From Lachnospiraceae bacterium (GTDB taxonomy: Bacteria; Bacillota; Clostridia; Lachnospirales; Lachnospiraceae): 40,641 nt of DNA. Both the position numbers and the translations under genes were made by a program. Location of the stretch: NCBI GenBank assembly GCA_017623675.1, contig JAGAOO010000033.1, forward strand, positions 1 through 40,641. The letters are read 5' to 3'. The notes under the pieces were generated by a model that saw only the letters and a program-made list of their open reading frames with translations, ran no database searches and was not told the origin of the DNA. Every line of letters starts with the position of its first letter. Position 1 is the first letter of the stretch. Of the stretch, positions 2,151 through 25,319 are shown in pieces.

Positions 2151-3335
2151 TTATATTCCCTCCTGTCGGTCTTTTACAAATGTATTGGTTTCTTTTGCTC
2201 TCGTTAATGCAACGCTCTTCTTTACCTTTCGGAATGAAAGAGAACCAAGTAAGAACATGGTTCCGGCGAAAACAAGAACCATTCCGAGAGTTTCATCAAT
2301 CTCTTTGCCGGCTGATAACATGCCATAGAGGAGGAAAGAAGAGATTAAGGATACTATGCAACCAATGACAATAAACCATATAGTTACTTTAGGCTTATCA
2401 TACGGTACGGCACCAATGACCTTGCCGGTCTGACCGTTCACCAGTATCGTGTAAGGCTGTGCCTGGTAACGGAAGGTTAAGAACCAGGCAGGGAACAGAG
2501 CATATTCCGTATTATGAATCTGATAGGTAGGAGCATTCCTTAGTATCTCAATATTGCTGGCATGAATAGTACCTTTTACCTCTTGATCAAATAATGTTTT
2601 GGCACGCAACAGGGCGAGTGTCTGCAATTGCTCGTCCGACATGTCGTAACGGTCTGCATAGAAACCGGAAAGATATCCGATATCAAACGATTGTAACGCA
2701 TGGGTGTCATAAGGCTCCAGCCGTTGAGAGGTTTCGTCATTCAATTGCTTGGAGGCATCCAGTGTGAGATTGGTAAAATCACAGTCGGCTTCCCGATAAT
2801 AATATTTCGTTTTCTTATGCTTTCCGCTGCCTACGGTGCCACGTAGATACTGTTTGTCGGCGTAGCGAATACTAAAGAGCCAGAAGGGGATGTAAATGCC
2901 TCTTACCCGTTCAATGTCAAAATTCTTGATATCTTTCGGAATAAAAAATCCTTTGTTCAGCCGTTGCCGGATAGTGGTAATTGCCTGTTCCTTTGTAACG
3001 GAAAATGGAATAATATACTTTGGTTTTGCTTCGGAAGAAACCCGGCTGAATACAATGGTGGGCTGACCACAGTAGGCACAGAAGGTAGAAGATTCTACCC
3101 CGTTGACTGCCAGCTCTGCACCACAAGCCGTACAGGTATAGATATTGCATTCCATGGTTTCACTTGCCAACTGTGAAGTGCCTGATACTCCTCCCGGTGA
3201 GGTGAGTTTTTCAGTTGTTTCAACCGTTTGTGATTGCTCTGCATCATATAGATTGCCACAACTGAAGCACTCCATTTTTCCCTTAGAAGGATTGAAATAC
3301 AGGGCATCACCGCAATTCTCACAATATAATATCAT
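2151..3335 (-). CDS. TFIIB-type zinc-ribbon membrane protein
   Basis: A 394-residue protein with two zinc ribbons at the N-terminus: Cys5/Cys8 with Cys23/Cys26, and Cys68/Cys71 with Cys86/Cys89. A middle region of ~200 residues is typical of the zinc-ribbon proteins annotated as TFIIB-type in Clostridia (KPKYIIPFSVTKEQA, then GIYIPFWLF). Two membrane spans are predicted near 317-340 and 352-369, with a basic C-terminal tail, so the ribbons and middle domain are probably cytoplasmic and membrane-tethered. The biochemical function of this family is unknown to me. GGGGGA lies 6 nt before the ATG. It leads a two-gene operon with the 58-residue protein and is transcribed divergently from the AAA+ gene. 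Confidence 0.75.
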   Translation of the reverse strand: MILYCENCGDALYFNPSKGKMECFSCGNLYDAEQSQTVETTEKLTSPGGVSGTSQLASETMECNIYTCTACGAELAVNGVESSTFCAYCGQPTIVFSRVSSEAKPKYIIPFSVTKEQAITTIRQRLNKGFFIPKDIKNFDIERVRGIYIPFWLFSIRYADKQYLRGTVGSGKHKKTKYYYREADCDFTNLTLDASKQLNDETSQRLEPYDTHALQSFDIGYLSGFYADRYDMSDEQLQTLALLRAKTLFDQEVKGTIHASNIEILRNAPTYQIHNTEYALFPAWFLTFRYQAQPYTILVNGQTGKVIGAVPYDKPKVTIWFIVIGCIVSLISSFLLYGMLSAGKEIDETLGMVLVFAGTMFLLGSLSFRKVKKSVALTRAKETNTFVKDRQEGI

Positions 3336-6382: not shown

Positions 6383-6766
6383 GAATGGATTCAAATGGAT
6401 TGGATATTCGGCACAAACTAGTGTTGCTACCGATATGCAAATACAGATGAGTAGTAAAGAAAAAATAAAAATCAAAAAAAGCAAAAAAAGGTATTGACAA
6501 AGAGAATGAAAATTGATAATCTATTCAGATTACTCATTTGAGAATGACCAAAAACTTGAGTGATACTAGATAAAGCACTTCTGAACACAGAAAAGTTCTT
6601 GACAGTTAACATTAATATAATGTAGCATGATTTAAAATATTTAAAATCTACATTGTTATAGCAGTTATATATTTCGTATCAATCGTTATTTTATGTAATT
6701 CATATAAGTAGTTTCAAGTTGTTTAGAAGTTAAGGAGCAGATGCTTGTCTGAAGGAGGAGAAGAAT
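6383..6766. other. AT-rich intergenic region before the signalling operon
   Basis: About 384 bases with no credible gene. It is very AT-rich and should hold the promoter of the operon beginning at 6767. Candidate -35 boxes are TTGACA at 6494-6499, with GATAAT at 6515-6520 (15-base spacer) or TAATCT at 6517-6522 (17-base spacer), and a second TTGACA near 6600 with no well-spaced -10. Around 6624-6655 an imperfect dyad has TGTAG/CTACA outer arms and an AT-rich core. None of these is decisive. No riboswitch consensus was recognised, including the c-di-GMP type that the downstream GGDEF gene made me look for. The start codon at 6767 has an AGGAGG. Confidence 0.45.
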
Positions 6767-9043
6767 ATGAGAATAAGGGCAAAGAAGATAGGTGCAATCA
6801 TCATTAGTGCGTTGTTGCTGACACAACTGGTGCCGAACATGGCTTGGGGAGATGGACCTACTGTAGGATGGATTAGGGGTTCAACGAAAATTTCCGAAGG
6901 CGATGTGGTATGTGAGCGTTATGAGGTACAAAACGGAGGAACACTTACGATAGCCGCTAATGTAGATGTACAGGGACAAATTGACGTTTTCGAACAAGGA
7001 ACACTTATTATAGAGGATGGTGGAACTGTTTCGGGTACAATCAATCTGAAGGAGAGTGTGGATTATGATCCTGAAAATCCTGCTTTTCCGGGAACGGTTG
7101 AGATTCAAGGTGGCGGAAGGGTTTCCGGAACAATTAGTATATACTATGGTGTAGTTACTGTTGATGCAGGCGGTCAAGCGAATGTCTTGAATATATCTCG
7201 TTGTGCTCCAGGTAAATCTGCACAATGCGATAATTATGGAACGATTGATACCGTGAATTTAGCCGGTGGCGATTACAATGCGTTTGGCAAAACCGGAACA
7301 CTGAACCTGGATGCAGTAGATAGCAATAGTCTTTCTGGGGTATATTTGAGAAGCAACAGTGTGACAGATATCATGACATATGTGAGTGCTACTGATATAA
7401 ATCTTCCTGTATATCCGGTTTTCATTGATGCTTATACGGGAGCAAGAGTGAATCAGACGCTCAATGTATGTTCGGATTATCTGGCTAGCAATTCTGTCGG
7501 CACCATCTTGGTTGGAAGTACAGGAGCGGAAGCGTCTGGCTGCTTACTGAAGTTGAATGGTAGCAGTGCATTTCCGTCCCGCTTGAAGTTTGAAGTTGCA
7601 AGTGTAGATACCAGGATTAATAATAATATGAGTTCTTCAGCCGGGGTGTGCAGCGTTGTGTGTGAAGGTAAGACTTATCCGCTTCCGGTTGCGGCATCGA
7701 CTGAAACGTCAATTTCGACTATATATGGGACGTCCGTATCTGTGGATAAAATCAATTTGGCGGATTTAGCAGTAGGGTATGGAACAGGAGATGTGGAAGA
7801 GGAAGTCCTTTCTGTGGGATTGACAGGAGGAACGAAGGCCGGAAGAATGAATTGCCGGATTACGCACATACCGGAGTTTATTGAGCTGCGGAATGAATCC
7901 GGAACACTTCTTCAGGAAGGAAGCAATGTTACGTTAGAGAATATATATGAAGTGTATAATGTAGATGAATCTCCGGAGGACTTTACAGTAAGAGCGAAAA
8001 TCGGAAATGCGGCAGCGGAATATAACGATACTTTAGAATTCGCACTTGAAACCAATATAGAAAATGCACAAGACAACGGTATCAGTAACATTGTTGTACG
8101 AGAAGTCAGTATTCCTATCAGCTTATCGGTTGCTCGAAAGACAGGCTCCGGTAAAATAGTGGTTGAGGATGTCTACTATGGCGAAGAGATTCAACCGGTA
8201 GTGACATCCGATACAAACGGGATTGCGAATGTAAGATTAGAATATAAAGTGAAAGGAGCGGCTGACAGTACTTATACGACGATTCAGCCAACGCAGTTAG
8301 GTACTTATACCGTGCGTGCAACTTTTGCAGAGACGAAGGAATATACGGCAGCAACAGCAACGGATGATTTTACCATTTCGCAGCTTGTTGTTACGACACC
8401 AAAGCGTCCATATGAGCTTCAGGGTACTGTGGGTGAGAATCATTACTATACATCTGATGTGACAATTATTCCGGCAAAGGGATATCTGATTGCAGATGCA
8501 GTTGATGGCGAGTACAAGAAGGAATTGGTAATCGGACAGACAACAAAGGGCCTTACGGTATATCTTCAGGATATTGAAACCGGAGGAATAACTGAAGGAA
8601 TAGCGGTTGCAGACTTCCTGATTGACCGGAAAGCTCCGGTGGTTTCCAAAGCAGTTTCCGGTGAAACGATTTATGGGGATGAGGCAGAAATCATTGTAAA
8701 GGATGATAACCTTTCAGAAGTGCTGGTAAATGGAGAAAGAGTAGAGATTAAGAACAATCAGGCAATCCTACAGTTGGCTTCCAATGGTGGTGAAGAAAAG
8801 TACGAAATTGTAAGTACAGATATTGCAGGCAATCAGAGCAAAATTCAAATAACCGTTGCGGCAGAGTGGATGAAGAAAAAGATTATCCCATCTGGTGTAA
8901 AGGTAAGATTAAGTCAGGAATGTGCTTATACTTTAGGAAGCGGAATCTGGAAGGTAGATGGCGATGGAACGGTATATGCCGGTGGTTCGAACTTCTATGT
9001 AAGAAGTGATGGAGAGTATGCATTTACAAAGGTTGAGAAGTAG
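6767..9043 (+). CDS. Secreted solenoid-like surface protein
   Basis: A 758-residue protein with a signal peptide (MRIRAKK then a hydrophobic core, likely cleaved after NMAWG near residue 28). The first ~130 mature residues are short Gly-rich turns such as GGTLTIAA, GTLIIEDGG and GGRVSG, the pattern of a right-handed beta-solenoid. The middle and C-terminal parts look like Ig-type beta domains, including a YTTIQPTQLGTYTVRATF stretch and DFLIDRKAPVV followed by DIAGNQ near the end. There is no LPXTG sortase signal, S-layer module or catalytic motif that I can see, so it is probably released or held by another interaction. It is the first gene of the signalling operon, 20 nt before the FecR gene, which suggests an extracellular ligand or input component (inference). 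Confidence 0.7.
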   Translation: MRIRAKKIGAIIISALLLTQLVPNMAWGDGPTVGWIRGSTKISEGDVVCERYEVQNGGTLTIAANVDVQGQIDVFEQGTLIIEDGGTVSGTINLKESVDYDPENPAFPGTVEIQGGGRVSGTISIYYGVVTVDAGGQANVLNISRCAPGKSAQCDNYGTIDTVNLAGGDYNAFGKTGTLNLDAVDSNSLSGVYLRSNSVTDIMTYVSATDINLPVYPVFIDAYTGARVNQTLNVCSDYLASNSVGTILVGSTGAEASGCLLKLNGSSAFPSRLKFEVASVDTRINNNMSSSAGVCSVVCEGKTYPLPVAASTETSISTIYGTSVSVDKINLADLAVGYGTGDVEEEVLSVGLTGGTKAGRMNCRITHIPEFIELRNESGTLLQEGSNVTLENIYEVYNVDESPEDFTVRAKIGNAAAEYNDTLEFALETNIENAQDNGISNIVVREVSIPISLSVARKTGSGKIVVEDVYYGEEIQPVVTSDTNGIANVRLEYKVKGAADSTYTTIQPTQLGTYTVRATFAETKEYTAATATDDFTISQLVVTTPKRPYELQGTVGENHYYTSDVTIIPAKGYLIADAVDGEYKKELVIGQTTKGLTVYLQDIETGGITEGIAVADFLIDRKAPVVSKAVSGETIYGDEAEIIVKDDNLSEVLVNGERVEIKNNQAILQLASNGGEEKYEIVSTDIAGNQSKIQITVAAEWMKKKIIPSGVKVRLSQECAYTLGSGIWKVDGDGTVYAGGSNFYVRSDGEYAFTKVEK

Positions 9044-9063
9044 GAGTAGGAAAGGAGTTTAGT

Positions 9064-9993
9064 ATGGAGAACGAAGAAAAGAAAGTTGGTAGTAAGAAGT
9101 GGATTATTATACCGGTGGCAGTGTTGGCGGTACTTTTGATTGGAGTGTTGATATTCTTTCTGACGAATAAGAAAGAGACTTACCGATTGATTAAAATATT
9201 TGAAATTGATGGTAATGCAACTGTAACCAGATCGGATATTGGAGACTTAGATGCTTATGTCAATATGATTTTGGAATCCGGCGATGCCGTGGCTATGAAA
9301 GACGGAACAATGACCTTGAAGTTAGATGAAGATAAGTTCGTTTATGTGGAGGAAGATACACAGTTCACGCTTGAAGCGACGGGAGATAGCACAAACAGTA
9401 AGACGTCAATCGAATTGACACAGGGAGCGATTACCAACGAGATTCAGAATAAGCTTTCTGAGGATTCTACATATGAGATTAACACACCAAACTCCACCAT
9501 GTCTGTACGTGGTACCGTCTATCGTGTAACGGTTTACTCGGATGAAAATGGGGTAAAATACACCAAAGTTGCAGTATTTAGTGGTGCGGTTGCAACCGAT
9601 TTGCTCTATCCGGATGGAACTAGCTCAGGCAACGAAACTATGGTAGATAAGGGAAAACAGGTTATTATTTTTGAAGATTCATCTACAACCGATTATCTGA
9701 CAGATGTGGAAGATATTGACTATTCTGACCTGCCGGAAAGTGTAATTAAGAAGTTGATTGAGATATCAGAAAATGGTACGGAATTGTCTTTGACAACAGA
9801 TGAATTAAAGACATATTTGAGTGAAGGCCCGTTTACGGTAACTTTCATCTACAATGGAACAGTGTTTGGCACACAAGAGGTTGAAAAGGACGATTGTGCT
9901 CAGATGCCATCCTTAATGCCGGCTTCAAGCGGCAACTGGGATTTTGATTTCTCAACGCCAATTACAGAAGATACAGAGATTCAGTGGAAATAG
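9064..9993 (+). CDS. Membrane-anchored FecR-domain protein with InlB-type repeat
   Basis: A 309-residue protein. A short cytoplasmic N-terminus with many Lys is followed by one membrane span (~16-34) and an extracellular FecR-like beta domain (~45-190) with the typical pattern of a repeated Gly/Asp turn and INTPNSTMSVRGTVYRV. The last ~55 residues (FTVTFIYNGTVFG to the C-terminus) match an InlB B-repeat / Flg_new unit, a fold used for surface contacts in Gram-positives. FecR domains usually sense envelope signals and pass them inward. Here no ECF sigma factor is present; the neighbour genes are instead a CHASE2 cyclase and a partner-switching phosphatase. Likely role: surface sensor or scaffold for the operon (inference). 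Confidence 0.75.
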   Translation: MENEEKKVGSKKWIIIPVAVLAVLLIGVLIFFLTNKKETYRLIKIFEIDGNATVTRSDIGDLDAYVNMILESGDAVAMKDGTMTLKLDEDKFVYVEEDTQFTLEATGDSTNSKTSIELTQGAITNEIQNKLSEDSTYEINTPNSTMSVRGTVYRVTVYSDENGVKYTKVAVFSGAVATDLLYPDGTSSGNETMVDKGKQVIIFEDSSTTDYLTDVEDIDYSDLPESVIKKLIEISENGTELSLTTDELKTYLSEGPFTVTFIYNGTVFGTQEVEKDDCAQMPSLMPASSGNWDFDFSTPITEDTEIQWK

Positions 9994-10012
9994 CCAGAGG
10001 GGAGTGTAATAT

Positions 10013-11191
10013 ATGAATGCGGAGTATTTAAGAACATTACCCACCATTCGTGAATTCTTTAAGATTAAAGAAACAGGGGAATTACAAGAGGGAACGCGGT
10101 TATTGCTGGAAGCAATGACAGAGATTACCATTCCGTCGGGAGAGGATGTAGTTACATTTGGTGAACCGTCTGATGATGGAATGTACATTATTCTCGAGGG
10201 TACAACGGATGTGTTGGCAAACGATGGAAAGCTGATTAATACACTGGGCGTTGGCGACTTTATCGGTGAATTAGGTTTGATAAATGACGATACCAGAGGT
10301 GCGACTGTTCGTGCCTCTGGACAAGTGCGTTGTGCCAATATTTCAAAGGCTCTATTTGATGAAATAGCGATGAAAAATCGCAAAATCTATGGTTCTTTCA
10401 TGAACATGTTATACACCAAAACCACAAAATTAGTAACGGAACAGGAACGAATCAAATCAGAATTAGAAATTGCAACCAGAATTCAGGCGGGGTGCCTGGA
10501 AGATGATTTCACGACGGTGAATCAGTTGCCAAATGTGAATCTGACGGCAAGGATGCGCCCGGCAAAGGAAGTCGGTGGCGATTTTTATGATGTATTTATG
10601 ATTGATGATTCGCACCTGTGTTTTTTGATTGCAGACGTATCAGGCAAAGGTGTACCGGCGGCTTTGTTTATGAGCATGGCAAAGATTCATATTAAGAACT
10701 ATGCTGCCTTAGGCTTACCATTAGCAGAGGTTGTGAGTCGGGCCAATGACAATTTGTGTTACAAGAACGAAGAAGGAATGTTTGTGACGGCATTTGTTTG
10801 TGTATTGGATGTTGAAACAGGCGATGTGAATTTTGTCAATGCAGGACACAATCTGCCGTTCATTTCCAAAGGGAATGAAGAGTTTAGCATGATACAGGCA
10901 AAAGCAAATCTTGTATTGGGACTGATGGAAGGGGTTCCATATCGGGAACAACACATTCAATTAGAACCGGGAGACAGCATTTATTTGTATACAGACGGTG
11001 TGACGGAGGCATTGAATCCGCAACAACAGCTGTTAGGAGATGACTATTTGAAGGACATGTTGAACCGGCACCGGGCGGATGCGGCAAATGTGGAGGTATT
11101 TGTGCAGGCCATGTATCAGGAAGTTGATGCTTTTGCGGCCGGAGAAACTCAGGCAGATGATATCACGATGGTATACTTAAGCAGAAAGTAA
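10013..11191 (+). CDS. cNMP-binding domain fused to SpoIIE/RsbU-type PP2C phosphatase
   Basis: A 392-residue cytoplasmic protein. Residues ~20-125 are a cyclic-nucleotide-binding fold with the phosphate-binding cassette GELGL followed by TRGATV: Glu86 and Arg95, the ribose and phosphate ligands, are both present. A helical linker (~125-165) leads to a SpoIIE-type PP2C domain (~170-392) with the metal-binding Asp residues in GGDFYD (Asp190), ADVSGKGVPAAL (Asp208), YTDGVTEA (Asp328) and ADDITM (Asp382/383), plus NAGHN. In this family the phosphatase dephosphorylates STAS antagonists. A STAS gene and an RsbW-like kinase lie just downstream, and a class III cyclase follows after 11 nt. The obvious model is cAMP-gated dephosphorylation of the STAS protein. 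Confidence 0.88.
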   Translation: MNAEYLRTLPTIREFFKIKETGELQEGTRLLLEAMTEITIPSGEDVVTFGEPSDDGMYIILEGTTDVLANDGKLINTLGVGDFIGELGLINDDTRGATVRASGQVRCANISKALFDEIAMKNRKIYGSFMNMLYTKTTKLVTEQERIKSELEIATRIQAGCLEDDFTTVNQLPNVNLTARMRPAKEVGGDFYDVFMIDDSHLCFLIADVSGKGVPAALFMSMAKIHIKNYAALGLPLAEVVSRANDNLCYKNEEGMFVTAFVCVLDVETGDVNFVNAGHNLPFISKGNEEFSMIQAKANLVLGLMEGVPYREQHIQLEPGDSIYLYTDGVTEALNPQQQLLGDDYLKDMLNRHRADAANVEVFVQAMYQEVDAFAAGETQADDITMVYLSRK

Positions 11192-11202
11192 AGGGGGTCA
11201 AC

Positions 11203-12993
11203 ATGAACAAAAAATTGATTCGGGATATAGTCGAAGGGATAGTTGTGGCTGGATTGGTATTCTTGCTGACTATTTCAAATTTGTTCTATTCCATAGACTA
11301 TTTACTAAAAGATGCTTTATATCAGATACCCAGAGGTATTGACAGCAAGATAAAGATTATTGCAATTGATGAACGTACGCTGGATGCGTTAGGACCAATC
11401 CAGACGTGGTCCAGAAGTCAATATGCGGATTTAATTCATGCATTGAATACATATGAGGATGCTAAGCCGGCGATTATCGGATTCGATATTATTTTTTCCG
11501 GCAACGTAGATGAAGAAGGTGACATAGCGTTTGCACAAGCGGCAGAGGAAAGTGGGAATGTGGTTGTTGCTTCTCAATTTGTCTACAGCGAGAAAAGCGA
11601 AGTGGACGAGAAGGGTCTCCGGGTATATCCGATTGACTCTGTCATATATCCATATGCAGAATTAAGAGAAGTTGTGGACTTGGGATATGCTAATGTGGCA
11701 CAGGACTCGGATGGTACGGTTCGGCGTTTTATTCCGGAGGAAACCTATGAGGGGCAGGAATGGTATAGCTTTTCCAGAATGATATATGAGAGGTACTGTG
11801 AACAGCAGGGATGTGCAACTAATTTCGTCAAGACAGATAAGTACGGAAGAACGCTGATTAATTATTCCGGAAAACCACTGGAATACGAATGCATATCTAT
11901 GATTGATGTGTTGGAAGGTAGAATCGACTGCCGTGCATTTAAGAATAGTATTGTGCTGGTAGGTGCCTATGCGACAGGAATGCAGGATAATTTCAAGGTG
12001 CCAAATGGATACAGTAAGCAGATGTACGGGGTGGAAATTCATGCAAATATCCTCCAAAGCTGTATGCAGAACCGGTTTTCGGTAAACGGCAATCCATATG
12101 TATGCGGAGCAATTCTGGGATTGCTTAGTGGAATTCTCCATGTATTGTTCAAACGGAAAAAGATTGTGCTTTCTTCTGTTTTATTAGTTGTAGCCATTGG
12201 AGGAGAACTGGCTGTTGGAGTCGTCTTAAATAATCAAGGAATTACCATTGGTTTGATTAATATGCCGATTATTGTGGTTATTTCTTACATTTATTCCTTG
12301 GCTCTTGGATATATTCGGGAACGATTGAAACGAAAAAAGGTCTTACAAGCATTTAAGAAATATGTGGCACCCGAGATTGTGGAAGAAATCGCGAAACGGG
12401 GTGATTTCAAAATCAAGCTGGGCGGAGAAAATAGGGACATTGCTGTATTGTTTGTAGACATACGAGGCTTTACAACTATGTCTGAGGTACTGGAACCGGA
12501 ACAGGTGGTGGAGATATTGAATCAATATCTGAACCTGACTACGCAAGCAATCTTTAAGAATAAAGGAACCCTGGATAAGTTCGTTGGAGATGCAACCATG
12601 GCGGTGTTCAATTCGCCGTTTGATTTGGATGATTATGAATATCGCGCCGTTTGTGCCGCAATGGATATTGTGGCAGGTGGTGCTGCTTTAGAGGAGAAAT
12701 TAATGAAGGAGTTCGGGCGCAGTGTTGGCTTTGGTGTCGGAGTTAACTGTGGACCGGCGGTTGTGGGAAATGTTGGCTGTGAATTCCGAATGGATTTTAC
12801 GGCAATTGGTGATACCGTCAATACGGCGGCCCGGTTAGAAGCAAATGCGAAAAAGGGGCAGGTATTAATTAGTGATACTATCTATGAAAGAGTCAAGGAT
12901 CGGATTGAGGTTGAAGAGGTTGGAGAAATACCTCTAAAAGGAAAGTCCAAGGGAGTCTTTGTCTATTCGGTTGTCGCTCTGAAAGACGCATGA
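11203..12993 (+). CDS. CHASE2-domain class III adenylate cyclase
   Basis: A 596-residue membrane protein. It has one N-terminal span (~12-32), an extracellular CHASE2 sensor (~35-295, with IAIDERTLDALGP and NSIVLVGAYATGMQDNFKVP), three spans (~300-317, 322-341, 346-369) and a cytoplasmic class III cyclase domain (~395-596). The catalytic set is complete: metal Asp419 (VDIRGF) and Asp463 (KFVGDA), purine-selecting Lys459 and Thr533 (the class IIIb Lys/Thr pair, pointing to ATP rather than GTP), and transition-state Asn540 and Arg544 (VNTAARLE). It should therefore make cAMP. Dedicated cAMP signalling is uncommon in Firmicutes; the cNMP-binding phosphatase next door is a ready-made receptor. 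Confidence 0.9.
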   Translation: MNKKLIRDIVEGIVVAGLVFLLTISNLFYSIDYLLKDALYQIPRGIDSKIKIIAIDERTLDALGPIQTWSRSQYADLIHALNTYEDAKPAIIGFDIIFSGNVDEEGDIAFAQAAEESGNVVVASQFVYSEKSEVDEKGLRVYPIDSVIYPYAELREVVDLGYANVAQDSDGTVRRFIPEETYEGQEWYSFSRMIYERYCEQQGCATNFVKTDKYGRTLINYSGKPLEYECISMIDVLEGRIDCRAFKNSIVLVGAYATGMQDNFKVPNGYSKQMYGVEIHANILQSCMQNRFSVNGNPYVCGAILGLLSGILHVLFKRKKIVLSSVLLVVAIGGELAVGVVLNNQGITIGLINMPIIVVISYIYSLALGYIRERLKRKKVLQAFKKYVAPEIVEEIAKRGDFKIKLGGENRDIAVLFVDIRGFTTMSEVLEPEQVVEILNQYLNLTTQAIFKNKGTLDKFVGDATMAVFNSPFDLDDYEYRAVCAAMDIVAGGAALEEKLMKEFGRSVGFGVGVNCGPAVVGNVGCEFRMDFTAIGDTVNTAARLEANAKKGQVLISDTIYERVKDRIEVEEVGEIPLKGKSKGVFVYSVVALKDA

Positions 12994-13006
12994 AAGGAGG
13001 GGAACT

Positions 13007-13444
13007 ATGCCGAGTGTAAATACAGCATTTAAAGTGGAAGCAGTACTGGACAATCTGGATACAGTGCTGAATAAGATTGAAACTGTATTGGATGATGTAG
13101 AATGTCCACCGAAGACGGCTATGCAGATAGCATTGACAATAGAAGAGTTATTTGTCAATGTGGCAAATTATGCATATCCGGGTATTGTTGGCGGATGTGA
13201 CTTCTCTCTTCAAGCGGAAGGGGAAGAAGGAATGGAACACCGGGGCTATATCGTTATTGAGATGCGGGATAAGGGAATCCCCTTTGATCCATTGGCAAAG
13301 GAAGACCCGGATATTACCCTTTCTGCAGAAGAACGAAAGATTGGTGGACTTGGCATTTTCATGGCAAAGCAGATTATGGATGAAATTGACTATCAGCGGG
13401 AAGGTAATGAAAACGTTATGAAAATGAAAAAAGTGTGGACATAA
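13007..13444 (+). CDS. RsbW/SpoIIAB-like serine kinase (HATPase_c_2)
   Basis: A 145-residue protein with the GHKL ATP-binding fold of anti-sigma-factor kinases: N-box EELFVNVANYAY (46-57), G1 box DKGIPFDP (88-95) and G2 box GGLGIF (113-118). Such proteins phosphorylate a STAS antagonist on Ser and, in the classical system, hold a sigma factor. AAGGAGGGG precedes the ATG. It lies between the cyclase and the STAS gene. No sigma-factor gene is present in the window, so the target may not be a sigma factor. Confidence 0.85.
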   Translation: MPSVNTAFKVEAVLDNLDTVLNKIETVLDDVECPPKTAMQIALTIEELFVNVANYAYPGIVGGCDFSLQAEGEEGMEHRGYIVIEMRDKGIPFDPLAKEDPDITLSAEERKIGGLGIFMAKQIMDEIDYQREGNENVMKMKKVWT

Positions 13445-13493
13445 TAATGCAAAAACAGTATTCTAAAGATAGTGAATTGTGAAGGAGGATATT

Positions 13494-13796
13494 ATGGAAA
13501 TCATAACAGAAAAGAATGGAACTGAGGCTACAATGGTATTGAAGGGTAGATTAGATACCAATGCAGCACCGGATATGGCAAAAACTGTGGATGCATTTTT
13601 GACATCAGAAACAGAGAAATTCATCTTAGATATGGCTGATTGTGATTATGTTGCCAGCTCCGGCTTAAGAGTAATTTTAAATGCACAGAAGAAAATGAAT
13701 GGCTTTGGTGGTACGATGGTAGTCAAAAATGTAGTCGGGGATGTTATGGAAGTCTTCGAAATGACAGGATTTGCAGACATACTGGTTTTTGAGTAA
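13494..13796 (+). CDS. STAS-domain anti-anti-sigma-type antagonist
   Basis: A 100-residue protein consisting of one STAS domain (SpoIIAA/RsbV type). The phosphoacceptor region DCDYVASSGLRVIL carries Ser55-Ser56. The frame extends upstream to a GTG at 13479, but AAGGAGG overlaps that codon and is well placed for the ATG at 13494, which I chose. Predicted cycle: phosphorylated by the RsbW-like kinase just upstream, dephosphorylated by the cNMP-SpoIIE phosphatase, and binding its partner only when unphosphorylated. Confidence 0.88.
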   Translation: MEIITEKNGTEATMVLKGRLDTNAAPDMAKTVDAFLTSETEKFILDMADCDYVASSGLRVILNAQKKMNGFGGTMVVKNVVGDVMEVFEMTGFADILVFE

Positions 13797-13839
13797 CTGA
13801 TAGAGTGAGTATGCAGGAGAAGGAGAAAAGGAGGGTATT

Positions 13840-15138
13840 ATGGAATTTCAAAACAATATTACAGATTTTGTGTCTGGAAAGATTGGTGGAATTACAATTA
13901 TTGCTGAAGCATCTGGAGAAATTGTTTATGCAGATGACTTTTATACGAAAAAGTACGGGAATGCAGTAACAGGTATGGTTGCTGAGGAGGTATACCTATG
14001 GCTGGGTGACTGTCCGGATTTATCTGCGGCAGATGGTGCTGTGGAATGGGAAAGTATTGATATTGATACCAAAAAGTATTATCGAATCAATTCGGGAAAG
14101 TTTGAAAAAGAGGGAATGGTTTATCAGATTCACCAGATGACAGATGTCACGGAATACATGGATTTGAATCGGGATATTACCAAGTATATGTCATTTTTCA
14201 AGAAGCTGTCTGCGTTCCAGACTGCGGTACTAGAAAAGCTTTCCAGTACCTATTATGAACTGTTGCCGATGCTGGCAGACTATTTTGTGACCAGTAAAGT
14301 CTATTGCCTGATTCAAAGAGAAGGTAATGTGGATATTATTACATATAACAAAATCGGTTCTGTATATTCCAATGACCGTATCGAATTAAACGGAGATGTG
14401 GCAGAAGTATTTCAGAAGAAGCAAAATGAAGACGTGGGATTTTCAGATTTGGCAGCATCTGTTCAGGAAGTGCTTGCATTAACAGGAAGCACAGAGGAAA
14501 GTGTATTCCGTCTCCTTTGTGGCGGAGCAGTATCCGGCCAGAAATATGCAGTTTATCTGTCAATGTGGCCGAATACCAATCAAGAAGCTATGAAAGAAAA
14601 GACACTTCTCAGTGTTATTCAGTTGTATCTGGAAAATGGTATCATGCGGGAAAAACTGATTTATGAGAGTGAGCATGACCGACTTACCGGACTTTATAAC
14701 AAGGGTAAGTATTTATCTATGGTTGAACAGGAATATGCAGACATGGATTCCATTGCCATCTTTAACTTTGATGTAAATAACCTCAAGGTGATGAATGACA
14801 ATTATGGTCATGAAGCCGGTGACAAGCTTTTGATAAAGGCGGCAAACAGTATTCGTAAGGTGACAAGCAACAAGGTTCACGGTTACAGAATGGGCGGGGA
14901 TGAATTCCTGATGATTGCCTGCAATGTATCAGAGAATGAAGCAAAGAACCTGAAGGACCGTTGGGAAAAAGAACTGGAACGGTTAAATACACTGGAGGAT
15001 GATATTCATTGTGTGATTGCAGCCGGCGTAGTATATGGTAAAAAGGACTATGACTTAGCAATGCTGATGAAAGAAGCAGACAAGCTGATGTATGAGGATA
15101 AGAAGAAAAAGAAGAAACCGGGAGAAGAAATTAGGTAG
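13840..15138 (+). CDS. PAS-GGDEF diguanylate cyclase
   Basis: A 432-residue protein without membrane spans. The N-terminal ~115 residues look like a PAS sensor (GGITIIAEASGEIVYADDFY). A ~150-residue middle region without a clear family, possibly GAF-like, follows. The GGDEF domain (~275-432) starts with HDRLTGLYNKGKY and has an intact active site GGDEF at 352-356 and NFDVNNLKVMND, so it should make c-di-GMP from two GTP. The RxxD inhibitory I-site normally just before GGDEF is absent, so product feedback may be weak. It ends in a Lys-rich tail. Its position between the STAS and pilT genes suggests that the partner switch or its inputs tune c-di-GMP and pili together (inference). Confidence 0.87.
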   Translation: MEFQNNITDFVSGKIGGITIIAEASGEIVYADDFYTKKYGNAVTGMVAEEVYLWLGDCPDLSAADGAVEWESIDIDTKKYYRINSGKFEKEGMVYQIHQMTDVTEYMDLNRDITKYMSFFKKLSAFQTAVLEKLSSTYYELLPMLADYFVTSKVYCLIQREGNVDIITYNKIGSVYSNDRIELNGDVAEVFQKKQNEDVGFSDLAASVQEVLALTGSTEESVFRLLCGGAVSGQKYAVYLSMWPNTNQEAMKEKTLLSVIQLYLENGIMREKLIYESEHDRLTGLYNKGKYLSMVEQEYADMDSIAIFNFDVNNLKVMNDNYGHEAGDKLLIKAANSIRKVTSNKVHGYRMGGDEFLMIACNVSENEAKNLKDRWEKELERLNTLEDDIHCVIAAGVVYGKKDYDLAMLMKEADKLMYEDKKKKKKPGEEIR

Positions 15139-15177
15139 TTAAAAGTAAGGATAATTTAGAAGTGGAGGAGAAAGAAT

Positions 15178-16224
15178 ATGGATTTTAACAAGTTGATTGG
15201 ATTTGCAAAGGAGAATAAGTGCTCCGATGTACATATTACTGTAGGAACATCATTGGCAGTAAGAAGATATGGTAAACTGGAGATGTTGGAGCAGGTGCCT
15301 ACTGCAGAGGAGTCAACGCAGATGATTCTTGAAAAACTGAGTGAGGATCAGAAGACAAGAGTGCTGGCAGGAGAGGATTTAGACTTTGCATTGGTAATGG
15401 AAGATGGAAGTCGTTTGCGTGCCAATATTTATCACCAGCGAAACAACCTGGCAGCCAGTTATCGAATCTTAAATGACAGGATACCATCCTTTGATGAGCT
15501 GGAAATACCATTGGCAGTACAAAAACTGGTAAATGAGCCACGAGGACTTGTGCTGATTACCGGTCCTACCGGAAGCGGTAAGACAACAACTCTTGCGTCC
15601 ATGGTAAATTATATAAATAAGAATCAGTCAAAGCACGTTCTTACTATTGAGGATCCGATTGAATATGTTTATTATCATGCGAAATCCATGATTCATCAGC
15701 GTGAGATTGGAAAAGACGTGGATTCTTTTGCAACGGCACTTCATTCTGCACTTCGTGAAGATCCGGATGTAATTCTGGTTGGTGAAATGAGAGATATTGA
15801 GACAATTAGTGCAGCAATTACGGCGGCAGAAACCGGACATCTGGTATTGTCCACTCTTCATACCTCCAGTGCGGCACAAACCGTCGAACGGATTATTGAT
15901 GCCTTCCCGGCGCATGGTCAGTCACAGGCACGAACCCAGTTGGCAAATGTATTAAGAGGTGTAGTAACACAGGTGTTAGTACCGTTAGAGGGCGAGGAAG
16001 GAATGACAATTGCTACAGAGGTTCTCTTAAATACAGAAGCAATAGCAAATCAGATTCGTGAAAATAAAACGCATCAGATTGCGTCTACCATTCAGAGTAA
16101 TATTTCCTCAGGTATGCATACCATGAACTGGGATCTGAAGCGGTTGGAGAAAGAATTCCGAATTTCAAGAGAGACAGCATTGAAGTTCTGTTCGAATGTA
16201 AAGGATTATGAAACGCAAAGATAA
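15178..16224 (+). CDS. pilT: PilT-type pilus retraction ATPase
   Basis: A 348-residue secretion ATPase of PilT length and layout. It has an N-terminal PAS-like domain (CSDVHITVG), Walker A GPTGSGKT (129-136), the Asp box (EDPIEY), Walker B with ILVGEMRD, the His box (LSTLHTSSA) and the C-terminal NQIRENKTHQI, which corresponds to PilT's AIRNLIRE retraction motif. In type IV pili this hexamer depolymerises the pilus and powers twitching. No pilin, pilB, pilC or pilD gene is in the window, so it is an orphan retraction gene placed in a signalling operon, and its TAA is directly followed by the start codon of the response regulator. Confidence 0.9.
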   Translation: MDFNKLIGFAKENKCSDVHITVGTSLAVRRYGKLEMLEQVPTAEESTQMILEKLSEDQKTRVLAGEDLDFALVMEDGSRLRANIYHQRNNLAASYRILNDRIPSFDELEIPLAVQKLVNEPRGLVLITGPTGSGKTTTLASMVNYINKNQSKHVLTIEDPIEYVYYHAKSMIHQREIGKDVDSFATALHSALREDPDVILVGEMRDIETISAAITAAETGHLVLSTLHTSSAAQTVERIIDAFPAHGQSQARTQLANVLRGVVTQVLVPLEGEEGMTIATEVLLNTEAIANQIRENKTHQIASTIQSNISSGMHTMNWDLKRLEKEFRISRETALKFCSNVKDYETQR

Positions 16225-16914
16225 ATGATAATTTTAATTGTAGAGGACAATCGGGAAATCAGTGATATGTTGTCGGCATTTCTGACAGATAATGGTTATC
16301 AGGTGGAATGTGCCTATGATGGCAGAGAGGCGGCAGAATCCATGAGAAATAAGGAATATACCTTAATCCTCATGGATTTAATGCTACCCTATAGGAGTGG
16401 AAGTGATTTGATTCGGGAACTACGTACCCATTCGAATGTGCCGGTTATCTGCCTGTCTGCCAAGTCCGGTATGGAGACCCGGTTAGAAGTACTTCGTATG
16501 GGAGCAGACGATTACATTCTAAAGCCCTTTGATTTGAATGAGGTGCTGGTACGGATAGAAGTAGTGTTGCGGCGAAGTCATGCAAAGACGGAAAAAGATA
16601 GCGGTGGAAAGCAACTGACATTTAAGAATCTGGTTTTGGATGTAGAAGGAAAGACAGCTTTTATAGGCGGAAAACCACTACCATTGACTGCAAAGGAATT
16701 GGCAATCTTACAGTTGCTTTTGGAATACCCCAATAAAACCTTTTCTAAGGCAAATATCTACGAAGCTATTTGGCAGGAACCGTATTATTATGAAGATAAC
16801 ACCTTGAATGTCCATATGAGTAATTTGAGGAATAAGTTGAAAAAAGCCGATAACGGAGAGGAGTATATCGATACTGTCTGGGGCATCGGGTATCGTTTGT
16901 CAGAGCATCTATGA
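16225..16914 (+). CDS. OmpR/PhoB-family response regulator
   Basis: A 229-residue protein. The receiver domain has acidic Glu7/Asp8, phosphoacceptor Asp51 (LMDLMLP), Ser78 and Lys100 (LKPFD), and is followed by a winged-helix trans_reg_C domain with NTLNVHMSNLRNKL and the terminal GIGYRL. The ATG abuts the pilT stop with no good ribosome binding site, so translation is probably coupled to pilT. The last four bases overlap the kinase gene. The ABC transporter genes beginning at 17917 are the likely targets. Confidence 0.93.
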   Translation: MIILIVEDNREISDMLSAFLTDNGYQVECAYDGREAAESMRNKEYTLILMDLMLPYRSGSDLIRELRTHSNVPVICLSAKSGMETRLEVLRMGADDYILKPFDLNEVLVRIEVVLRRSHAKTEKDSGGKQLTFKNLVLDVEGKTAFIGGKPLPLTAKELAILQLLLEYPNKTFSKANIYEAIWQEPYYYEDNTLNVHMSNLRNKLKKADNGEEYIDTVWGIGYRLSEHL

Positions 16915-17807
16915 AAATAGCAATTATTCTATTCGGTCTTCTCTGCATCGGTTTGCTGGTCTATCTTCTGCTGATGAAAAAGCAGATACGGAACATCACC
17001 GGAGAATTAAAAGAGAACCGGAACATGGATTATAATAAGCAGATAAGGGTACAGTTGTTTGATAAAGACTTAACAGAACTAACCAAAGAATGTAATTATA
17101 ATCTGGATTACCAAAGCGAGTTGAAGCGAAAGAGCCGGTTACAGGAGGAAGCATCCAAACGGGCAATTTCAGACATTGCCCATGATCTTCGAACTCCATT
17201 AACAGTGGTAAAGGGTAATCTGCAGCTCATGGAACGGGAAGGCAATCTGGGAGAAAAGGAGCAGCAGCATTTACAGGTGTGCGAAGCAAAGACCAATGAA
17301 CTAAAGTACATGGTAGATGAATTTTTTGAATTGTCCATGCTGGAAAGTGATACCTCGGTGGTAGAGGTAACGGAAATGAATCTTACCGGTTTATTGATGA
17401 ATGTCATCTTAGAGCATGAACTTCTCATTCGGGAACATGGGTTAACACCGGAGCTTTCCCTGCCGGAAAAGACGTTGATGGTTCGGGGGAATGAAAAGCT
17501 TCTGGAGCGAATTTTTGAAAATCTTCTTGGAAATATTTTCAAGTACGCAAAGGAGCAGTTTTTTGTTTCTCTTGTGGAAGAACCGGATAGCTGCAGGGTA
17601 GAATTTGCCAATTTTATTGAGAAAGAAAATACCATTGACGTAGAGCATTTATTTGACCGGACTTATATGGCGGATGCATCCCGGCACAAGTCAGGCACCG
17701 GACTTGGACTGTTCATTGTCAAGTTATTGGCAGAGAAGCAAGGGGCTAAGGTGTACGCGGAGAAATCAGATAACATGCTTACGATTGGCGTAGAGTTGAG
17801 AAAATAA
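16911..17807 (+). CDS. Sensor histidine kinase, single N-terminal TM
   Basis: A 298-residue kinase with one membrane span (~3-22) and almost no extracellular loop, a cytoplasmic linker, a HisKA domain with phospho-His91 (DIAHDLRTP) and a HATPase_c domain (N-box ENLLGNIFKYA, G2 box SGTGLGLFIV). The G1 box is degenerate. Very short sensor regions of this kind occur in kinases that sense through an ABC transporter or the membrane, as in bacitracin-type systems, and an ABC transporter follows here. It overlaps the regulator by 4 nt (ATGA). Confidence 0.9.
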   Translation: MKIAIILFGLLCIGLLVYLLLMKKQIRNITGELKENRNMDYNKQIRVQLFDKDLTELTKECNYNLDYQSELKRKSRLQEEASKRAISDIAHDLRTPLTVVKGNLQLMEREGNLGEKEQQHLQVCEAKTNELKYMVDEFFELSMLESDTSVVEVTEMNLTGLLMNVILEHELLIREHGLTPELSLPEKTLMVRGNEKLLERIFENLLGNIFKYAKEQFFVSLVEEPDSCRVEFANFIEKENTIDVEHLFDRTYMADASRHKSGTGLGLFIVKLLAEKQGAKVYAEKSDNMLTIGVELRK

Positions 17808-17844
17808 AGAATTTTTTAGGAATTAAGGAATTCTTTATTTTTTT
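17805..17844 (+). terminator. Intrinsic terminator after the OmpR/kinase pair
   Basis: A 9-bp stem (17805-17813 with 17829-17837) followed by a long T-tract. It begins in the stop codon of the kinase gene and closes the transcription unit that may start at 6767. Confidence 0.75.
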
Positions 17845-24534: not shown

Positions 24535-25319
24535 AGAAAATACTCTTAATTGGTAAGTTGGACCAAATTGTTCAAAATCTGAATGAATGTTTAGTAGGGA
24601 AGTTTAATGTACAATTATGTTCAGAGTCGGTTGAATTGGTGCGAGGCATGATGAAAATATCAAAACCGGATATGGTTATTATTTGCAGTATTGATGCCAA
24701 TGACATCCAGACTGATATTTTCCAACTGCTTAGCAGCAATGCTTATTCCTACATTCCGGTTCTGGTGGTTGGTACCAGAGAGGGATGTCATAAGTTTAGG
24801 GAATATTATGAAAAATCCCAATTTGAATATATGATTCGTCCAATCAGTAAGGAAACACTTTTGAAGAAATGCAGTGAACGACTTAACATGGTTGATTCTG
24901 CATCAGACAGTAGTGAATTACAAATGAATGATAATTCAACGGAAGAACAGGCGAGAAAACGTATTTTAATAGTGGATGACAGTGCCTTGGCTTTAAGAAA
25001 CGCAAAAGCGATGTTGGATAAGAAATATAATGTTATGGTTGCAACCTCTGGCAAACAGGCAATGACAGTGTTACAAAAGAAGCGACCGGATTTGATACTG
25101 TTGGATTATGAAATGCCGGGCTGGGACGGAAAAACCACTTTGGAGAATATCAGACAGGAAAAAGAATTTGAGGATATTCCGGTTATTTTCCTTACGGGTG
25201 TGGCAGATAAAGAGCATATCACAGCGGTGTTGCGTTTGAATCCGGCAGGATATTTTTTGAAACCACTGGAGAAGGAAAAATTGTTAGAAGCAATTGACAA
25301 GATTTTTGGAGAAGGATGA
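24531..25319 (+). CDS. Double receiver-domain protein without output domain
   Basis: A 262-residue protein. Residues 1-~120 are a degenerate receiver: the fold is recognisable, but the phosphoacceptor position lies in VIICSIDAND without the usual Asp-x-x-Pro-Gly context. A linker leads to a normal receiver (~142-262, VDDSALALRNAK, Asp192 in LLDYEMPGWDG, Lys in LKPLEKE). No DNA-binding or enzymatic output is attached. It overlaps both neighbours by 4 nt, so it is made in step with the hybrid kinase and the LacI protein and may act by protein contact (inference). Confidence 0.85.
   Translation: MKKILLIGKLDQIVQNLNECLVGKFNVQLCSESVELVRGMMKISKPDMVIICSIDANDIQTDIFQLLSSNAYSYIPVLVVGTREGCHKFREYYEKSQFEYMIRPISKETLLKKCSERLNMVDSASDSSELQMNDNSTEEQARKRILIVDDSALALRNAKAMLDKKYNVMVATSGKQAMTVLQKKRPDLILLDYEMPGWDGKTTLENIRQEKEFEDIPVIFLTGVADKEHITAVLRLNPAGYFLKPLEKEKLLEAIDKIFGEG

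Follow-up and report, generated by a model that had tools for sequence, protein, structure and literature searches.

A block of genes in the contig JAGAOO010000033.1 of a Lachnospiraceae bacterium, analysed here at its full length of 40,641 nt (the window), carries a core set of signalling genes that are conserved together as a unit: genes for a FecR-domain protein, a SpoIIE phosphatase with a cNMP-binding domain (cNMP-SpoIIE), a class III cyclase with a CHASE2 sensor domain, an RsbW-like kinase, a STAS protein and a diguanylate cyclase (DGC). In the window this core is preceded by the gene of a secreted surface protein and followed by that of a second PilT-family pilus motor ATPase (PilT2), which is associated with the core but is not part of it. 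With only slightly more belief than doubt, we propose that the unit works as a relay, in which an envelope cue would act through cyclic AMP (cAMP) on a partner switch, and the partner switch on the synthesis of cyclic di-GMP (c-di-GMP).

The eight open reading frames (ORFs; genes 1 to 8, Table 1) all lie on the forward strand between positions 6767 and 16224, and are separated by 20, 19, 11, 13, 49, 43 and 39 nt when the STAS gene is read from ATG 13494. This codon, and not GTG 13479, is probably the start of the gene, because it has the better ribosome site in front of it and is the start used in most relatives. Purine-rich stretches resembling Shine-Dalgarno sequences could be seen by eye 5' of all eight genes. 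An initial annotation of this DNA had described eight tightly spaced same-strand genes at this place. Both the arrangement, with gaps of 11–49 nt, and most of the proposed domains were confirmed: Pfam matches exceeded the curated cut-offs for FecR, cNMP_binding with SpoIIE, CHASE2 with Guanylate_cyc, HATPase_c_2, STAS, GGDEF and T2SSE (the scans left out the first ORF of the window, which is open at the contig start), and NCBIfam scores over the cut-offs agreed with the STAS and PilT assignments. The labels given to the envelope genes fared worse. The "solenoid-like" nature of gene 1 is unproven, as its product matched no Pfam family over the cut-off and the structural matches of its model (all-beta, mean pLDDT 73, several stretches below 50 within the first 260 residues) were mostly tandem Ig-like proteins. 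A single useful fold relative of gene 1 was also sought and not obtained, whole-length TM-scores being below 0.2 among the matches listed. An InlB repeat, which had been ascribed to gene 2, did not appear at E ≤ 0.01, and "surface sensing" as a name for the role of the operon was overstated.

To see how far the set is conserved, gene 3 was searched for in 150 genomes of the family and in named genomes (eight loci), the cyclase alignment in 397 genomes, and eight genomes of the genus were compared (below, L and G numbers stand for loci and genomes). Nine whole loci were found to contain the complete core set. The window, L035, L043 and L045–L048 share one order, namely surface protein, FecR, cNMP-SpoIIE, CHASE2 cyclase, TIM-barrel protein, kinase, STAS, DGC, except that the TIM-barrel gene is missing from the window and L045, as it is from L117; in L120 it lies on the opposite strand. 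L120, which comes from another genus, also has the full set, but there FecR leads and two proteins resemble gene 1, and L036 has the same core genes in a different order and no match to gene 1. One further genome has its set divided between two contigs (L042/L118 and L117), and L044 breaks off at a contig end after the kinase gene. The module thus occurs in eleven genomes of at least five genera, in ten of which gene 1 was seen (relatives in L035, L042–L048 and L120). Its carriers include a Clostridium sp. (L042), Lachnospiraceae (L043, L045–L048; L045 is from a metagenome-assembled genome from roe deer colon) and Eubacteriales (L044). The DGC gene is linked to the module in all ten loci that reach beyond the kinase gene, and DGC orthologues at E<1e-190 were found in 5 of 394 genomes of the family, all five within the module. 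Within the genus, the CHASE2 cyclase is present in three of the eight genomes and missing, for example, in G106, which is 99% complete; the window genome (2.8 Mb in 84 contigs) is 93.8% complete. Clearly, the module genes are co-conserved as a unit. The gene-neighbourhood search suggested in the initial annotation supports the core, in nine whole loci and two genomes cut by contig ends. A GGDEF-EAL protein is encoded 1.6 kb upstream of gene 1 in the module copy of G044 (L035:2722-4695).

The entry point of the relay would be gene 4, which has CHASE2 together with a class III catalytic domain. The motifs VDIRxFT, DKFxGDAT and MD[FY]TAIGxTVNxAARLE were kept in all ten aligned cyclases; they include the residues that we take to be the metal-binding Asp, the substrate Lys and the transition-state Asn and Arg. 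Lys plus Thr is the mark of adenylate-type cyclases, the best solved-structure matches of gene 4 are adenylate cyclases, and its product would be cAMP. On the outer side, gene 1 has a variable N-terminal part and a better conserved, predicted Ig-like C-terminal part: the mean identity to the window protein was 0.46 for residues 545–758 versus 0.18–0.26 before them (8 full rows, with the partial L042 left out).

The putative receptor of cAMP is the gene 3 phosphatase. All 13 aligned homologues retained the cNMP motifs GELxL and RxATV, and the PP2C metal-site motifs were likewise kept in 13/13. Three cNMP hits over the cut-off and one under it were found in the window genome. As the other two over the cut-off are without the Arg of the binding cassette (by eye), gene 3 appears to be the best, perhaps the only, cAMP receptor of the cNMP type in this genome. 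The step from cAMP to the phosphatase, postulated in the initial annotation, is therefore plausible, this cNMP domain being the only canonical one among the three, and we consider it quite likely that cAMP gates the gene 3 phosphatase. A second possible cAMP receptor, a cNMP domain joined to DUF2225, is encoded within the module copy of L036 (4581-5723). In L037 (8950-16651), L135, L038 and L039, a cNMP-SpoIIE gene adjoins an MBL gene, together with FecR and/or the CHASE2 cyclase; no kinase, STAS or DGC gene was recognised in these four loci, three of which are short contigs.

Genes 3, 5 and 6 provide the parts of a partner switch of the RsbU/RsbW/RsbV kind, namely a phosphatase, a kinase and a STAS protein with a serine motif. 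Among seven aligned kinases the N-box and G2 box were kept in all and the G1 box in six, and the phospho-acceptor motif of the STAS protein, of the YVASSGLRV type, was kept in 7/7, its serine position being presumably that of SpoIIAA. The NCBIfam models of RsbW and SpoIIAA matched the kinase and the STAS protein below their cut-offs (23.8/145 and 46.7/114.75 bits, respectively). As for the DGC, GGDE[FY] was kept in 8/8 orthologues and the model of gene 7 had a mean pLDDT of 77; its PAS-like and GAF-like parts were assigned by eye and from the model, not by Pfam. The most conserved part of the DGC is the linker between them (residues 102–150), which exceeds even the catalytic domain: 26 of its 49 columns are invariant in the 8 module orthologues, and its mean identity to the window protein is 0.82, compared with 0.43 for the PAS-like, 0.42 for the GAF-like and 0.75 for the GGDEF part. 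This conservation suggests a docking surface. Since the linker is unusually conserved, and since SiaC of Pseudomonas aeruginosa binds the helical stalk of the DGC SiaD, we regard the linker as the candidate docking site of the STAS protein, and it is fairly likely that the STAS protein controls the DGC. When structures were searched with the DGC, the matches listed were other enzymes that contain GGDEF or belong to c-di-GMP metabolism, and their whole-length TM-scores were low; SiaD (7e6g) ranked 21, with 189 aligned columns, which is no evidence on docking.

Similar sets occur apart from the CHASE2 cyclase. HATPase, SpoIIE, STAS and DGC genes lie together in L207 and L208, and SpoIIE, STAS and GGDEF genes in L209, with no CHASE2 cyclase recognised in any of these loci. 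In the DGC of L207, which has a local partner switch, the linker identity is 0.45 (PAS 0.24, GAF 0.20). A compact switch was seen in L152 (12862-14769, minus strand), where cNMP, SpoIIE and HATPase domains are joined in one protein whose gene adjoins a STAS gene; a CHASE2 cyclase with FecR lies some 2 kb away.

The proposed relay would run as follows. Outside the membrane, the gene 1 surface protein and the FecR protein would modulate the CHASE2 domain, and the cyclase, with its conserved active-site residues, would make cAMP. Binding of cAMP to the cNMP domain would switch on the SpoIIE phosphatase, and the balance between kinase and phosphatase, whose motifs are present, would set the phosphorylation of the STAS serine. 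The unphosphorylated STAS protein would dock on the DGC linker and turn the DGC on, as SiaC does with SiaD; linker conservation and gene linkage point to this contact, and the sign is the one that we favour by analogy with SiaC. Finally, c-di-GMP would act, among other targets, on PilB, the motor for pilus extension, through its MshEN domain, while PilT2, as an accessory, would add retraction capacity from the same transcript. Of the circuit drawn in the initial annotation, the conserved core set and a plausible action of cAMP on the phosphatase were thus retained, but PilT is accessory and the surface-sensing part was too strong.

The same genes could also be arranged as a classical RsbW-type switch, in which the kinase would hold an unlinked sigma factor, the STAS protein would free it, and the DGC would be merely co-transcribed. 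Sigma factors are the usual targets of partner switches, and the sub-cut-off matches to RsbW and SpoIIAA fit such an arrangement. However, no sigma factor was found among the Pfam-scanned genes of the window and its flanks, a scan that covered part of the genes of the loci and did not extend to unlinked sigma factors. Moreover, the constant linkage of the DGC, the recurrence of related or other GGDEF genes beside other SpoIIE/STAS sets, and the conservation of the DGC linker all argue for the DGC as the target, which makes a sigma factor improbable in this place. We think as little of the possibility that cAMP is not the link, either because the cNMP domain binds another ligand or because the cyclase and the switch act in parallel on different targets. 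In its favour, L049 has a cNMP-SpoIIE gene with no CHASE2 cyclase recognised within 21 kb, and among solved structures the cNMP domain resembles cGMP-dependent kinases best, ahead of the regulatory parts of cAMP-dependent kinases and then, among others, CRP. On the other hand, the cNMP binding motifs and the cyclase active site are both kept throughout the alignments, the cyclase resembles adenylate cyclases best, and the gap between the cyclase and phosphatase genes is 11–33 nt in eight module loci (the window, L035 and L043–L048; not L036 and L120). Although each of the gene families is common, a chance gathering of signalling genes has a negligible probability, given that the set and mostly also its order are conserved across at least five genera.

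Several observations weigh against the relay as we propose it. The module is rare: when it was searched for outside the family, in 391 genomes of the class (E ≤ 1e-75), the full-length cNMP-SpoIIE was found in only two, the window genome and G194, and the remaining matches covered the SpoIIE part. The genomes are related, so that counts and p-values throughout are not independent. The DGC linker has low confidence in the monomer model, with residues 105–123 below 50, and its helices are likewise predicted at low confidence. The linker identity is only 0.22 in the DGC of L208, where a local partner switch is present (PAS 0.20, GAF 0.16), and reaches 0.35 in that of L206, where no partner switch was detected (PAS 0.25, GAF 0.17). 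The precedents disagree on the sign, since SiaC binds its DGC when unphosphorylated and HsbA when phosphorylated. At the output end, 7 of the 11 module genomes either have no close PilT2 or encode it away from the module. The MshEN domain is not confined to module genomes, being encoded also in G106, which belongs to the genus of the window, and in G163, G356 and G375; moreover, G125 and the scored copy of G044 have Lys at one key Gln contact of MshEN. The broader idea that CHASE2 cyclases mark pilus-bearing genomes was unsupported, as MshEN occurred in 15/28 genomes with the cyclase and in 54/122 without it (p 0.25).

PilT2 shares 49% identity with the pilus-cluster PilT of its own genome (L040, a type IV pilus locus with genes of the PilM/PilN, PilD, pilin, PilC, PilT and PilB types), and forms a clade separate from it (SH-aLRT 99, with a long-branch warning) in a tree from which 6 of the 24 fetched PilT loci (L069-L072, L079, L080) were left out, the sequence filter having found no frame in them. 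Just four loci of ten have its gene beside that of the DGC, namely the window, L045, L117 and L120, which belong to two genera (that of the window and that of G194). PilT was therefore rejected as a core member, and its inclusion in the unit by the initial annotation was overstated. The orthologue lies elsewhere in the genome in G158, G160, G161 and G162, and no close orthologue was found in the module genomes G044, G125 and G157. Nevertheless, PilT2 (at ≥59% identity, a threshold set once the list was known) co-occurred with the full-length CHASE2 cyclase in 8 of 9 PilT2 genomes versus 50 of 385 others (Fisher p 1.1e-6, uncorrected for relatedness and assuming that the 58 cyclase genomes, of 397, lie within the 394-genome PilT2 set). 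Within the genus, three of eight genomes have PilT2 together with the CHASE2 cyclase and the other five have neither, whereas the pilus-cluster PilT is present in all eight.

Whether PilT2 serves as a functional output is, in our judgement, evenly balanced. It may instead be a passenger, that is, a copy of a pilus ATPase that came to lie downstream by duplication and has nothing but the transcript in common with the module; we see this as a real possibility, without leaning towards it. The small share of loci in which PilT2 is adjacent and the module genomes that have no close copy agree with a passenger, as do unlinked PilT2 genes that adjoin unrelated ones, such as ribosomal and translation-factor genes (L156, by eye) or that of an LRR protein (L158). 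The adjacency in two genera speaks against it, and so does the co-occurrence with the CHASE2 cyclase, both exact within the genus and family-wide, although linkage and shared ancestry weaken the latter two points. For PilB as a target of c-di-GMP, the PilB of the window genome has an MshEN domain with two 24-residue motifs and a 5-residue spacer, in which 9/11 and 8/11 positions agree; some key positions vary, including Lys in place of the first Arg of motif 2. The domain was found in 11/11 module genomes versus 69/150 genomes of the family. The motif scored 15–19/22 in 11 of 13 PilB stretches, one per module genome, and was not found by the filter in the two second PilB copies (G044, G194).

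The transcription unit probably extends past PilT2 to a response regulator and a histidine kinase, for a likely total of ten genes that span roughly 6.6–17.8 kb, because the regulator gene abuts the PilT2 stop codon, the kinase gene overlaps that of the regulator, and a hairpin follows the kinase gene. This hairpin had a folding energy of −17.1 kcal/mol (z = −5.51; 0/200 shuffles were as good) and was missing from the list of the consensus terminator scan. That scan placed no forward-strand terminator-like site inside any gap, which is weak evidence either way, as the counts in the window were at the shuffle level both for terminator-like sites (8, shuffle mean 7.4, standard deviation 2.9) and for promoter-like sites (39, shuffle mean 32.3, standard deviation 6.7). 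A relative of the response regulator, 86% identical, follows PilT in L117, whose contig then ends; none was matched at E ≤ 1e-5 in L045 or L120. The two genes are local, and the regulator is not part of the conserved module. Rfam gave no match over the gathering score in the window, in L040 and L041 (the pilus-type ATPase loci of the same genome), or in L163 and L164. Elsewhere in the window, positions 25316-27313 encode a LacI-type regulator whose single chain has two periplasmic-binding-protein domains; downstream of it come genes for a sugar ABC transporter, a GH32 enzyme and a PfkB kinase. A 394-aa ORF on the minus strand (2151-3335), with no Pfam match at E ≤ 0.001, adjoins an AAA ATPase gene.

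Table 1. Features of the window and examples of associated genes in other loci, with the evidence for each.
Feature	Position	Strand	Evidence or remark
Best promoter-like site upstream of gene 1	6599..6628	+	TTGACA, 18 nt, TAGCAT; 10/12; tentative
Gene 1, secreted beta-rich surface protein, 758 aa	6767..9043	+	signal peptide by eye
Gene 2, FecR-domain protein, 309 aa	9064..9993	+	Pfam FecR 1.5e-9; N-terminal membrane anchor by eye
Gene 3, cNMP-binding domain + SpoIIE (PP2C-type) phosphatase, 392 aa	10013..11191	+	PF07228 7.9e-50
Gene 4, CHASE2 sensor + class III adenylate cyclase (predicted), 596 aa	11203..12993	+	Pfam, motifs
Gene 5, RsbW/SpoIIAB-like Ser/Thr kinase (HATPase_c_2), 145 aa	13007..13444	+	PF13581 1.3e-20
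Gene 6, STAS anti-anti-sigma-like protein, 100 aa	13494..13796	+	TIGR00377 64.9 vs cut-off 53.45 bits
Gene 7, DGC: PAS-like, linker, GAF-like, GGDEF, 432 aa	13840..15138	+	Pfam GGDEF
Gene 7 linker, candidate STAS docking site	14143..14289	+	conservation
Gene 8, PilT2, second PilT-family pilus motor ATPase, 348 aa	15178..16224	+	TIGR01420 425.2 vs cut-off 319.1 bits
Response regulator (Response_reg + Trans_reg_C)	16225..16914	+	gap 0 nt after PilT2 stop
Histidine kinase	16911..17807	+	4-nt overlap with response regulator
Predicted intrinsic terminator	17798..17844	+	A+U-rich 21-bp hairpin, U-run closing 3' arm
GAF-HD-GYP proteins (examples), 471-529 aa	L127:8387-9889, L174:4618-6072, L136:7173-8666
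TIM-barrel protein	L035:12108-12893		and 27 others

Beyond the module, we compared 58 CHASE2-cyclase loci, 52 of which came from 51 genomes, out of the 58 in which the cyclase is full or nearly so, and six from other searches (not in the set: G006, G089, G049, G406, G376, G029, G206 and a second G295 copy; dropped as copies: L116 of L045, L118 of L042, L119 of L046 and L160 of L117; also dropped: L040/L041). A FecR gene lies within 9 kb of the cyclase gene in 45 of them. By output, 10 loci had the partner switch (11 with L044, classed "B" solely because its contig ends after the kinase gene), 31 a GAF-HD-GYP protein, four were of class "B" and 13 of class "none", some of them at contig ends. 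The GAF-HD-GYP gene is within 9 kb of the cyclase gene and, in two loci, on the opposite strand. HD[IV]GK and HHExxxGxGY, the marks of c-di-GMP hydrolases, are kept in all 31 proteins (domain content Pfam-checked in three), and these proteins are thus likely c-di-GMP hydrolases, an output opposite in sign to the DGC of the window. In L144 the GAF-HD-GYP protein has 765 aa and is joined to a TIM-barrel protein. On the cyclase tree the output labels were clustered, with several changes. Taken together, these loci suggest a theme of CHASE2 input with c-di-GMP output of either sign, that is, a family of cAMP-to-c-di-GMP relays. In the window genome itself, CHASE2 is fused directly to HD-GYP in a 685-aa protein (L163:1986-4043, minus strand; G000:C38).

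Candidate phosphodiesterases are encoded near the cyclase in 44 of the 58 loci, as a TIM-barrel protein in 28 and an MBL protein in 16, never both; neither is present in the other 14, including the window. Apart from L135, the alternation mostly tracks the two halves of the cyclase tree, and it therefore counts as few events. In L174, the MBL protein matched a cyclic-nucleotide phosphodiesterase model over nearly its full length but far under the cut-off (53.8/400 bits), its best match being RNase Z (59.9/293 bits), and the phosphodiesterase match in L037 was weaker (19.7 bits). The TIM-barrel protein was nearest, under the cut-off, to the CbiR phosphodiesterase and DNase IV. An isomerase role is possible for it, since its best solved matches, after two uncharacterised proteins, are sugar epimerases. 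Residues H68, H109, E148, D176, H179, H202, H204, D213, H215 and E244, which we take to resemble the metal ligands of endonuclease IV, were kept in all 28 aligned sequences (27 from cyclase loci and the own-genome copy). The own-genome copy lies in L164 at 10439 (G000:C53), near a second class III cyclase of 509 aa. The TIM-barrel and MBL proteins may be cAMP phosphodiesterases of unrelated metal-hydrolase folds. A joint reading, which we put forward tentatively and think unlikely to hold in full, would be a Lachnospiraceae family of relays in which a FecR and CHASE2 cyclase sensor block is plugged into outputs of opposite sign, with cAMP cleared by either the TIM-barrel or the MBL enzyme; in it, the GAF domain of GAF-HD-GYP may bind cAMP and the TIM-barrel protein may be a new, endonuclease-IV-like class of phosphodiesterase.

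If the relay holds, gut bacteria, in which to our knowledge cAMP signalling has hardly been described, would have a complete wiring from an envelope sensor through a second messenger, a protein switch and another second messenger to a motor. Two second messengers would be put in series, in Firmicutes the partner switch would be given cAMP as a small-molecule input and c-di-GMP as an output other than a sigma factor, and the role of the second PilT would become testable. A direct combination of these elements is found in Bd1971, a structural match to the cNMP domain of gene 3 (PDB 6hq2/6hq3) that is reported to be a cAMP-sensing c-di-GMP phosphodiesterase; like the proposed relay it joins a cNMP domain to a c-di-GMP enzyme (EAL), but by direct fusion, without a partner switch.

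A search of open-licence papers, mostly by titles and the starts of abstracts, found no description of the full combination. The statement of the initial annotation that no such Firmicute system had been described can stand in that sense, but it overlooks precedents for the parts (PMC8457831, PMC5085249, PMC9239204). In a Campylobacterota cluster, a CHASE2 adenylate cyclase adjoins a FecR-domain protein, as in the window, together with a cAMP phosphodiesterase and a TPR protein, and a single pathway was proposed; in the accessible part of that paper, the legend of Figure 4 mentions potential pathways that combine at least two of ECF, cAMP and kinase systems, as well as ECF parts with cAMP or c-di-GMP enzymes, and that part names no partner switch, DGC or pilus motor in the cluster (PMC9239204). 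Conversely, no cAMP phosphodiesterase or TPR family was found among genes 1–8 at E ≤ 0.01 among the matches listed, the only phosphodiesterase-type ones being those of the gene 7 GGDEF domain to c-di-GMP enzyme models. The MshEN domain of pilus and secretion ATPases, as outlined in PMC5013675, consists of two 24-residue motifs and a 5-residue spacer, all of which are present in the PilB of the window genome and predict c-di-GMP binding there.

The HsbA/HsbD pair of P. aeruginosa, in the available text of PMC5085249, is likewise a STAS (anti-anti-sigma) protein that binds a DGC, and this DGC affects pilus assembly, an effect for which a need for HsbA was not demonstrated in that text. Contrary to the proposed relay, the DGC there binds phosphorylated HsbA, is tied to the HptB cascade and, so far as that text goes, has no cAMP step. 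The closest likeness is to SiaABCD of P. aeruginosa, where a phosphatase, a kinase, a small phospho-acceptor and a DGC are encoded in one operon, as they would be here judging from gene spacing, and where SiaC attaches to the helical stalk of SiaD, a contact that phosphorylation of SiaC prevents (PMC8457831; see also PMC7647112 and PMC7278518). However, the window proteins fall far below the family thresholds of SiaA (47.6/700 bits) and SiaD (75.6/290 bits), and the window phosphatase has a cNMP domain. The window unit also includes an adenylate cyclase and FecR, its acceptor is a classical STAS protein with Ser where SiaC has Thr, and its DGC has PAS-like and GAF-like parts. Thus, the unit looks like a system that works as SiaABCD does, with a cAMP-gated phosphatase, without being a member of that family; its parts are known, and the chain that they form looks new.

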